A stretch of DNA of 64,000 nucleotides from Bacteriovoracaceae bacterium. GTDB taxonomy: Bacteria > Bdellovibrionota > Bacteriovoracia > Bacteriovoracales > Bacteriovoracaceae. Position numbers and translations under genes: made by a program. Positions within the stretch are counted from its first letter, which is position 1. Each line of letters starts with the position of its first letter. Shown here in pieces: positions 15,131 to 17,411 of this stretch. A model generated the notes under the pieces. That model worked only from the letters and a program-made list of their open reading frames with translations. It was not told where the DNA came from and made no database searches. Where the stretch lies: positions 930,001 to 994,000 of the forward strand of contig JANJTC010000005.1 in NCBI GenBank assembly GCA_024711325.1. The letters run 5' to 3'.

Positions 15131-16234
15131 ATGATTAAGGAAATCTTCATCCATTCTTTTGAACAAGTTCTACCTGCGTATCACCTGGAGCAATCCCGGA
15201 TTGTTGAATGGATTTTAAAGTCACACCAAAGAGTCGCCTCACTCAAGAATGAGTGCCCTGATCCTCAGCAATTTACCAATGCCTTAAGGCGTTTTTGCCT
15301 CTCAGAAAAGTTCATTGAAAAGCGCTATTTTGAATGTGATGAATTGGATGAGAATTGGGAAGATCATGAAATCTATCGACTGGTGAAAGATTCTCCCGCA
15401 GGAGTAACCATAGATAAAAGAAATGAATTCTTCGGCAGGAATGTGCAGAAAGTATTATCCAAGTTATATGGAGAAAGGGCACCTGAGCACATAATTCATG
15501 TCACTTGTACTGGTTATATTTCTCCGAGTCCAGCCCAGGTTTATTTTAGCGCAAAAAAAGAGTCACCCGATATTACTCATACCTATCACATGGGATGTTA
15601 TGCTTCCTTGCCTGCGATTCGCATGGCGAAGGGACTTGTCCTGTCGGAAAGGAAGACGGTTGATATTGTTCATACTGAAATGTGCAGTCTTCATTTAAAT
15701 CCATCAATACATAGTCCTGAACAAATGGTGGTGCAAACCCTGTTTTCCGATGGGCATATTAAGTACTCTGTCGGCGAATCAAAGCGAGGATTTAATATAT
15801 TGGCCATCAAGGAAAAAATAATACCGGACTCCATAAAAGATATGACGTGGATACCTGGAGAAGTGGGAATGATGATGACTCTATCCCGTGAAGTCCCTAT
15901 TAAGATCAGGGATGCACTTCCGATTTTTGTTGATGAGTTATGTTCAGAGGCTGGGGTCAGAAAACAAGAGATTTTGGAGAGCGGTATCTTTGCCATACAT
16001 CCCGGAGGTCCTAAAATTATTGAGGCCGTTCAGAAAAAGCTGGAGCTTAAAGATGAGCAGGTTGAAATCAGTAAGAACATTTTGAAAACCCGAGGGAATA
16101 TGTCATCTGCCACTCTTCCGCATGTCTGGCAGGAGATAATGAATTCTCAATTGTCAGATGGAACCAAAATTCTCAGTCTGGCGTTTGGTCCTGGGCTCAC
16201 TATTTTTGGTTCGTTGTTCGAGGTGAAGAATTGA
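15131..16234 (+). CDS. Type III polyketide synthase (chalcone/stilbene synthase family)
   Basis: A 367-residue thiolase-fold homodimeric synthase that extends acyl-CoA starters with malonyl-CoA and cyclises the product, usually to pyrones, resorcinols or phloroglucinols. The catalytic triad is visible as Cys156 (YHMGCYAS), His290 (FAIHPGGPKII) and Asn323 (TRGNMSSAT). VTCTGYISPSPA and the C-terminal AFGPGLTIFGSLFE (GFGPG-type loop) are also typical. The ribosome site AGAGGGAC precedes the ATG. The stop overlaps the TTG start of the next gene by 4 bp, and a UbiG-like methyltransferase follows, so the product is probably a methylated phenolic or quinone lipid. The starter unit cannot be read from the sequence. 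Confidence 0.9.
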   Translation: MIKEIFIHSFEQVLPAYHLEQSRIVEWILKSHQRVASLKNECPDPQQFTNALRRFCLSEKFIEKRYFECDELDENWEDHEIYRLVKDSPAGVTIDKRNEFFGRNVQKVLSKLYGERAPEHIIHVTCTGYISPSPAQVYFSAKKESPDITHTYHMGCYASLPAIRMAKGLVLSERKTVDIVHTEMCSLHLNPSIHSPEQMVVQTLFSDGHIKYSVGESKRGFNILAIKEKIIPDSIKDMTWIPGEVGMMMTLSREVPIKIRDALPIFVDELCSEAGVRKQEILESGIFAIHPGGPKIIEAVQKKLELKDEQVEISKNILKTRGNMSSATLPHVWQEIMNSQLSDGTKILSLAFGPGLTIFGSLFEVKN

Positions 16235-16674
16235 GTGCACTTTATCTTCCATTTTTAATTCAAGGTTTTCTTATGGGCATGGATGAGAAGCTTCATCACC
16301 AGCGTGGTCTGGCCTTATGGGAAAGACTCGGACATCCACTGGATACGCTTACGGTTTTTGTAACACTCTCTTATATCGTGATTAATGACTACACTGAACA
16401 AGGTCAGATGGTTTACATCATGCTTTCCATCTTTTCCTGCTTGTTTATCACCAAAGACGAATTCATTCATACAAAAGTCTGTTCGGCCTTTGAGCACTGG
16501 CTTCATGCTGTTTTATTTATTCTTCACCCTATGATCTTTTTATGTGCAGGGATTCTTTGGAAGTATCAACCGCAAGATGAGTTTTTAAATTATTGGGCCA
16601 TTTTAACCGGCCTTTTTATGATGTATCAGATTTTTCGTTGGAGTATCCCATGGAAGGCCGTGCTGAAGAGATAG
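16231..16674 (+). CDS. Four-helix membrane protein in the type III PKS operon
   Basis: A 147-residue integral membrane protein. Helices lie at about residues 33-51, 58-74, 90-110 and 118-138, and conserved-looking polar motifs MDEKLHHQRGL and TKDEFIHTKVC occur between them. These His, Asp and Glu residues at membrane edges could bind metal, as in small membrane oxygenases, but that is speculation. The start is a TTG overlapping the synthase TGA stop (TTGA) with GAGGTG just upstream; an ATG at 16273 is an alternative. The end overlaps the methyltransferase by 25 bp. Its place between synthase and methyltransferase suggests it helps modify or hold a membrane-bound product. Confidence 0.7.
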   Translation: MSALYLPFLIQGFLMGMDEKLHHQRGLALWERLGHPLDTLTVFVTLSYIVINDYTEQGQMVYIMLSIFSCLFITKDEFIHTKVCSAFEHWLHAVLFILHPMIFLCAGILWKYQPQDEFLNYWAILTGLFMMYQIFRWSIPWKAVLKR

Positions 16675-17402
16675 ACAATAGTATCTATGAAAATTATGGT
16701 GAAAGATGGTACACGGCCTTCGATGATCCGGTCGCACTTTTACGTGCTGAAAATAGAGTTAAATTTCCTTGGATACTTTCTCAGTTAATTAGCTATTCTC
16801 ATCTGGGAAGTCGGATACTGGATGTTGGATGTGGGGGAGGCTTTTTAAGTAATGAGCTGGCCATGAATGGTTATGAAGTCACCGGTATTGATTTATCAAC
16901 TTCCAGTCTAAATGTTGCCCGGGCCCATGATAAAACTCAAACAGTTAAATATGAAATAGCTGATGCCTTTAAACTGCCTTATCCTGATGGAAGTTTTGAT
17001 GCTCTTACTGCGATGGATTTTTTAGAACATGTAGAAAAACCTCAAGAGGTGATTAAAGAGTTTTCAAGAGTTCTAAAACCAGGAGGACTTTTTTTCTTTC
17101 ATACCTTCAATCGAAATCCTTTAGCATGGCTTGTCATCATTAAATTTTTAGAGTGGTTCGTGAAAAACACTCCAAAGAATATGCACGTCTTAAGACTTTT
17201 TATAAAACCTCAAGAGCTAAAAATGTTTTGTAAGTTTGCTGAAATGGAAGTTATGTCGATGATTGGCATTCGACCTGTTATTTCTTCAATTAATTGGGAG
17301 ATGATTAAAACCGGTATTATTTCAAAAGACATGAGATTTACATTAACCCAAGGAACCCTCTTGTCCTATATGGGAGTGGCTGTGAAAAAAAGGGCCCTGT
17401 AG
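16650..17402 (+). CDS. UbiG-like SAM-dependent methyltransferase
   Basis: A 250-residue class I methyltransferase. Motif I is ILDVGCGGGFLSNEL (about 56-70), then GYEVTGIDLS, DALTAMDFLEHV (post-motif II) and VLKPGGLFFFHTFNRNP (motif III). The N-terminal WYTAFDDPVALLRAENRVKF and the order of motifs resemble UbiG, which O-methylates phenolic quinone precursors. I infer methylation of the polyketide made by the gene two upstream. The start is the ATG at 16650 with GGAG before it; a longer frame to 16593 runs through the membrane gene. The stop codon lies in the loop of the downstream hairpin. Confidence 0.85.
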   Translation: MEGRAEEIDNSIYENYGERWYTAFDDPVALLRAENRVKFPWILSQLISYSHLGSRILDVGCGGGFLSNELAMNGYEVTGIDLSTSSLNVARAHDKTQTVKYEIADAFKLPYPDGSFDALTAMDFLEHVEKPQEVIKEFSRVLKPGGLFFFHTFNRNPLAWLVIIKFLEWFVKNTPKNMHVLRLFIKPQELKMFCKFAEMEVMSMIGIRPVISSINWEMIKTGIISKDMRFTLTQGTLLSYMGVAVKKRAL

Positions 17403-17411
17403 AGGGCCCTT
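17384..17411 (-). terminator. Intrinsic terminator of ileS
   Basis: AAGGGCCCT (17390-17398) and AGGGCCCTT (17403-17411) pair perfectly around GTAG. Read on the minus strand, the stem runs into TTTTTTT (complement of 17384-17391), so it serves ileS. On the plus strand there is no T run, and the loop contains the TAG stop of the methyltransferase gene. Confidence 0.8.

Follow-up and report, generated by a model that had tools for sequence, protein, structure and literature searches.

A conserved operon of a type III polyketide synthase, a seemingly undescribed membrane protein and a UbiG-type methyltransferase in Bdellovibrionota, a candidate route to methylated phenolic lipids

Analysis of a 64,000-nucleotide stretch of genomic DNA from a Bacteriovoracaceae bacterium (hereafter the window) revealed three consecutive genes encoding a type III polyketide synthase (PKS), a small membrane protein (MEM) and a UbiG-type SAM-dependent methyltransferase (MT), whose features are collected in Table 1. 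The open reading frames reproduced the compact operon of the original prediction, including overlaps of 4 bp between PKS and MEM and of 25 bp between MEM and MT, the former of which probably serves translational coupling. Comparison with the nearest relative, the metagenome assembly Bacteriovoracaceae bacterium UBA4096 (proteins 92–94% identical), gave dN/dS values of 0.13 for PKS, 0.20 for MEM and 0.09 for MT, indicating purifying selection on all three frames, which thus behave as real genes. Promoter and terminator scans at the operon yielded no score above those of shuffled sequences; a terminator-like hairpin of ileS (minus strand) spans the end of the MT gene at positions 17390–17411.

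Table 1. Genes and overlap features of the operon in the window.
Feature	Position	Strand	Remarks
Type III polyketide synthase (PKS)	15131–16234	+	367 aa, ATG start; ArsB/ArsC type
MEM, small membrane protein	16231–16674	+	147 aa, TTG start; family seemingly undescribed
UbiG-type SAM-dependent methyltransferase (MT)	16650–17402	+	250 aa, ATG at 16650
TTGA, PKS stop/MEM start overlap	16231–16234	+	4 bp; also in many relatives
GGAG (16640–16643, RBS-like) and ATG of MT	16640–16652	+	Within the 3' end of the MEM gene

The PKS matched Pfam Chal_sti_synt_C (3.6e-21), and its triad Cys156-His290-Asn323, predicted to be intact, was confirmed and found to be invariant among relatives. The best solved relatives were 3VS9 (E 1.7e-61) and 3VS8 (1.1e-59), all others being far weaker; both entries are Azotobacter ArsC, with the G284W exchange in the case of 3VS9. 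ArsB produces alkylresorcinols and ArsC alkylpyrones, a difference decided by ArsB Trp281 versus ArsC Gly284 (PMC6274091). Alignment to 3VS9 and 3VS8 placed Trp240 of the window PKS at the ArsB Trp281 position, and Trp occupies this column in 96 of the 97 PKS sequences having it. The residue predicts alkylresorcinol formation and, at the level of sequence, strongly suggests an alkylresorcinol as the first product. While ArsB and ArsC are the nearest characterised synthases, with the same triad and Trp/Gly cyclisation position, the operon described here differs from Azotobacter arsABCD in having MEM and MT in place of a type I fatty acid synthase.

For MT (METHYLTRANSFERASE), the best solved relatives were UbiG proteins. 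This class I SAM methyltransferase scored 144 bits against the NCBIfam UbiG cut-off of 103 bits, retains the predicted SAM site (LDVGCGGGF), and aligns gap-free over the membrane-binding segment of UbiG, which comprises E. coli residues 165–187 (PMC4796655). Membership of MT in a ubiquinone pathway was ruled out, as the window genome holds a MenA homologue among men genes, identifying a menaquinone maker, has no evident 4-hydroxybenzoate UbiA (its other UbiA-family matches being one heme O synthase fusion and one weak match) and gave no COQ7 upon searching. Because the genome makes menaquinone and is without COQ7, the UbiG-type enzyme appears to act outside ubiquinone synthesis here. UbiG methylates a 3-alkylcatechol, and an alkylresorcinol, if hydroxylated beside its chain, would present just such a substrate; O-methylation of the lipid by MT is therefore strongly suggested.

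MEM seems to represent an undescribed family. It matched no Pfam, NCBIfam or PHROGs family and gave no usable PDB-sequence match, and a Foldseek search with its model returned no solved structure at E < 1; likeness to any known hydroxylase in the libraries searched was seen neither in sequence nor in fold. Weak scores for AA_permease_2 and Gaa1 were not credible, and Pfam, PDB-sequence and Foldseek searches yielded no match to Coq7 or ferritin-like di-iron hydroxylases. Outside the phylum, no match was found in plasmids or viral contigs, and a single-sequence scan of genome contigs, which is insensitive, matched only UBA4096. Instead of the four transmembrane helices originally proposed, the AlphaFold2 model built with 21 sequences (pLDDT 91.9, pTM 0.86) predicts five helices long enough to span the membrane and a short one at the C-terminus. 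Across the 83 operon-type MEM sequences, which share a mean identity of about 46%, residues D18, E19, H22, R25, E31, H35, D38, K75, D76, E77, H80, E88, H92 and H99 are invariant. Judged by helix ends in the model, they all gather at a single membrane side, at the ends of helices 1 and 3 and the starts of helices 2 and 4, with H99 set two turns deeper, and the two ExxH and two ExxxH motifs, also invariant, share the same membrane face. Lys and Arg amount to 3.7 per 13 residues in the first loop on the side of this cluster and to 3.2 in the C-terminal tail, whereas the opposite loops are poor in them; as MT can moreover be fused to the C-terminus, the residue cluster and the C-terminus probably face the cytoplasm. 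A DExxH...ExxxH pattern occurs twice in MEM, and a repeat score of 17.0 versus at most 16.5 among 500 shuffled sequences, together with an hhalign E of 0.001, hints at a possible internal duplication. We also detected 20 lower-scoring MEM-like sequences, none of which is adjoined by a PKS; they keep E19, E31, E77, E88 and H92 and have mostly lost H35, D76 and H80. One of the 20 (L138) is an operon-type MEM that is truncated and lies next to an MT where the contig ends, and L136, L137, L139–L145 and L184–L191 form a distant paralogue family without PKS linkage in which the same three residues are mostly replaced. Since these residues are mostly missing from the PKS-unlinked paralogues, the ligand-like residues of MEM appear to track the pathway.

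A survey of 369 genomes of the one phylum, Bdellovibrionota, many of them incomplete, detected MEM (> 100 bits) in 83 and an ArsB-like PKS (> 250 bits) in 89, with both genes in 81 and neither in about 278; the carriers span at least eight family labels, and as they are related the counts do not equal independent events. Eight genomes have a PKS and no intact MEM (G033, G144, G145, G219, G237, G238, G316 and G292), and in G316 and G292 MEM is present as a fragment or cut by the contig end. The two genomes with MEM and no PKS are G140 and G335, in both of which the MEM gene lies right at a contig start. In seven same-genus genomes PKS and MEM are absent together, and two same-genus genomes negative for both (G010, G024) lack MT too. 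MEM adjoins PKS on the same strand in 79 of the 83 cases, most commonly with a 4-bp overlap, and MT adjoins in 61. The three-gene order, which was to be sought in other genomes, recurs in the PKS-bearing genomes of the window's genus and across many families of the phylum, and in four genomes MEM and MT form a single reading frame (L119:2839–4008, L121:6324–7429, L122:5738–6985, L123:5089–6366). With this linkage and these fusions, the proposal that the membrane protein is part of the pathway stood, and its unlinking in relatives was not borne out. In g71 (20 genomes), which we infer to be a Bdellovibrio-like genus, PKS and MEM stay paired and MT lies elsewhere, being detected in all 12 genomes tested; G190 has a PKS-MT pair with MEM apart, and G268 a MEM-MT pair with PKS apart. 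Genomes with a split operon have usually kept all three genes. Over 57 triples, the pairwise distances of PKS, MEM and MT track one another with correlations of 0.75–0.84, as expected for co-inheritance. The linkage and co-occurrence counts across the phylum rule out a chance adjacency, and PKS, MEM and MT constitute one conserved functional unit. A gene for a MarR-like protein, possibly a regulator of the operon, abuts it at L070:5274–5774, L122:5130–5729 and L130:4784–5233.

Operons of PKS, methyltransferase and oxidoreductase in Mycobacterium and Streptomyces direct the synthesis of polyketide quinones, which are alternative respiratory carriers beside menaquinone (PMC9927152). The pkqABC/srsABC systems resemble the present operon as three-gene units of a resorcinol-type PKS, a methyltransferase and a redox-type third slot in menaquinone-making hosts (PMC9927152, PMC6669644). 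In contrast to their ICMT-type methyltransferase, SrsB being annotated as an isoprenylcysteine carboxyl methyltransferase (PMC6669644), MT is of the class I UbiG type; their flavoprotein oxidoreductase is absent here and MEM takes its slot, in the order PKS-MEM-MT. The likeness to the srs genes drawn in the original prediction thus holds for the combination of PKS and methyltransferase and for the position of MEM in the flavoprotein slot, but not for the type of methyltransferase. The hierridin hidABC and planctomycete alkylresorcinol clusters, as far as the accessible text of the two reports describes them (PMC8086630, PMC10896814), likewise join PKS, methyltransferase and oxidoreductase and occasionally a prenyltransferase, whereas that text mentions no MEM-like gene and presents the oxidoreductase as a separate type. 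Among the relatives studied here, a UbiA-family prenyltransferase gene lies 3' of MT at L072:4083–4976, L116:6677–7591, L123:4175–5080, L198:5406–6299 and L199:5419–6309, as PKS-MT-UbiA without MEM in three genomes (L072, L198, L199) and as PKS-MEM-MT-UbiA in two, and a prenyl group may therefore be added in some lineages. With the UbiG/Coq7 step pair of ubiquinone synthesis, the operon has in common that MT passes the UbiG model; it differs in the absence of a ubiquinone pathway and of detectable homology between MEM and Coq7, a di-iron enzyme that, though unrelated, can take the place of a flavoprotein hydroxylase (PMC5069965).

No full-length class A flavoprotein hydroxylase was found in the window genome, where FAD_binding_3 matches were only of motif length or weak and partial. 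Full-length FAD_binding_3 matches were likewise missing from G005, G173 (motif-length only) and G222 (no match at all), whereas the MEM-bearing G015, G154 and G160 do have a class A flavoprotein. With few genomes tested, a full-length hydroxylase of this class was present in four of six MEM-negative versus three of seven MEM-positive genomes, a difference that only weakly suggests that a flavoprotein hydroxylase replaces MEM where the latter is absent. In both Deinococcus (L148) and G225, the next genes after PKS encode a methyltransferase and an FAD oxidoreductase. As no full-length class A enzyme was found in the window genome, G222 and G173, MEM is the best hydroxylase candidate if the ring is hydroxylated in these organisms.

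On this basis we propose a pathway in which the PKS would add three malonyl units to a long fatty acyl thioester and close an alkylresorcinol, as its family indicates. MEM, binding a metal (probably two irons) through its acidic/His cluster at the cytoplasmic face, would then hydroxylate the resorcinol ring next to the chain to give a 3-alkylcatechol/hydroquinone. MT would O-methylate the alkylated catechol, as in ubiquinone synthesis, and oxidation of the methylated product would afford 2-methoxy-6-alkyl-1,4-benzoquinone, a quinone that could work alongside menaquinone and take electrons from NDH-2. We see roughly even chances that the product of the operon is a long-chain, methylated phenolic lipid of the membrane which is probably converted to a quinone by oxidation, and that MEM serves as a non-flavin ring hydroxylase. 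Our confidence in the individual steps is moderate for ring hydroxylation by MEM and for a quinone as the end product, and weak to moderate for a use of the lipid in respiration. A further-reaching version, according to which MEM is the first member of a new class of aromatic hydroxylases that are integral to the membrane and depend on metal, and Bdellovibrionota pair it with a UbiG-type MT to supplement menaquinone with a second respiratory quinone, 2-methoxy-6-alkyl-1,4-benzoquinone, as a polyketide-derived mimic of a ubiquinone intermediate, is put forward tentatively and may well not hold in full.

Type II NADH dehydrogenase (NDH-2) reduces quinones, and in 11 g71 genomes an NDH-2 gene (Pfam NDH2_C above cut-off) is the immediate upstream neighbour of PKS-MEM, in the same orientation, at distances from an 11 bp overlap to a 44 bp gap. 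L107:3769–5079 is an example, with ten further loci in the same genus. Two further lineages, G002 (of the window's genus) and G222, also have a same-strand NDH-2 gene no more than about 3 kb away, and the window genome has one NDH-2, located away from the operon; the adjacency, being mostly confined to one genus, may reflect a single event. Of the lipid, electron carrier or signal that had been envisaged as the product, the presence of NDH-2 next to the operon in 11 genomes favours the electron carrier over a purely structural lipid.

A structural role would nevertheless follow if MEM were a membrane scaffold or lipid-handling subunit for PKS and MT and the product a methylated alkylresorcinol, as in Azotobacter cysts, in which ArsB-type lipids are structural (PMC4824345). 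The MEM-MT fusions and PKS-MEM overlaps fit such a subunit, and three genomes with PKS and MT manage without MEM. However, about a dozen invariant acidic and His residues over 83 sequences at about 46% mean identity look catalytic, and UbiG-type methyltransferases have a membrane-binding segment of their own, so that we regard a scaffold as rather unlikely. Catalysis by MEM could also take another form, namely metal-dependent hydrolysis, isomerisation, desaturation of the chain or a different ring modification of the same lipid, given that such a set of residues is compatible with several metal-dependent reactions and no homology singles one out. Yet MEM occupies what is the hydroxylase/oxidoreductase slot in the srs, pkq and hid clusters (PMC9927152, PMC8086630) and in those of Deinococcus, and a UbiG-type MT expects a catechol, which together make other chemistry improbable.

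Ring hydroxylation towards a respiratory or membrane lipid also has to be weighed against a secreted signal or antibiotic as the product. Type III PKS products are frequently bioactive, but no recurring transporter or resistance gene stood out beside the operon, whereas NDH-2 does recur, and we consider such a product very unlikely. If hydroxylation by MEM and a quinone product are correct, an undescribed enzyme family would be added to aromatic-lipid chemistry, and MEM would join UbiF/Coq7 as a second instance in which an unrelated enzyme has taken over from a flavoprotein ring hydroxylase. The range of polyketide quinones would then reach beyond Actinobacteria to an entire, mostly predatory bacterial phylum, and a respiratory role of such lipids would become testable in the genetically tractable Bdellovibrio.

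In two genomes, a cytochrome P450 gene was seen beside the PKS, at L201:473–2755, where it is fused to a flavodoxin domain, and at L208:5237–7447. G035 harbours a second type of PKS cluster unlike the MEM operon (L074:1763–6422), which contains an AMP-dependent ligase, a flavoprotein and an apparent short membrane-type methyltransferase.
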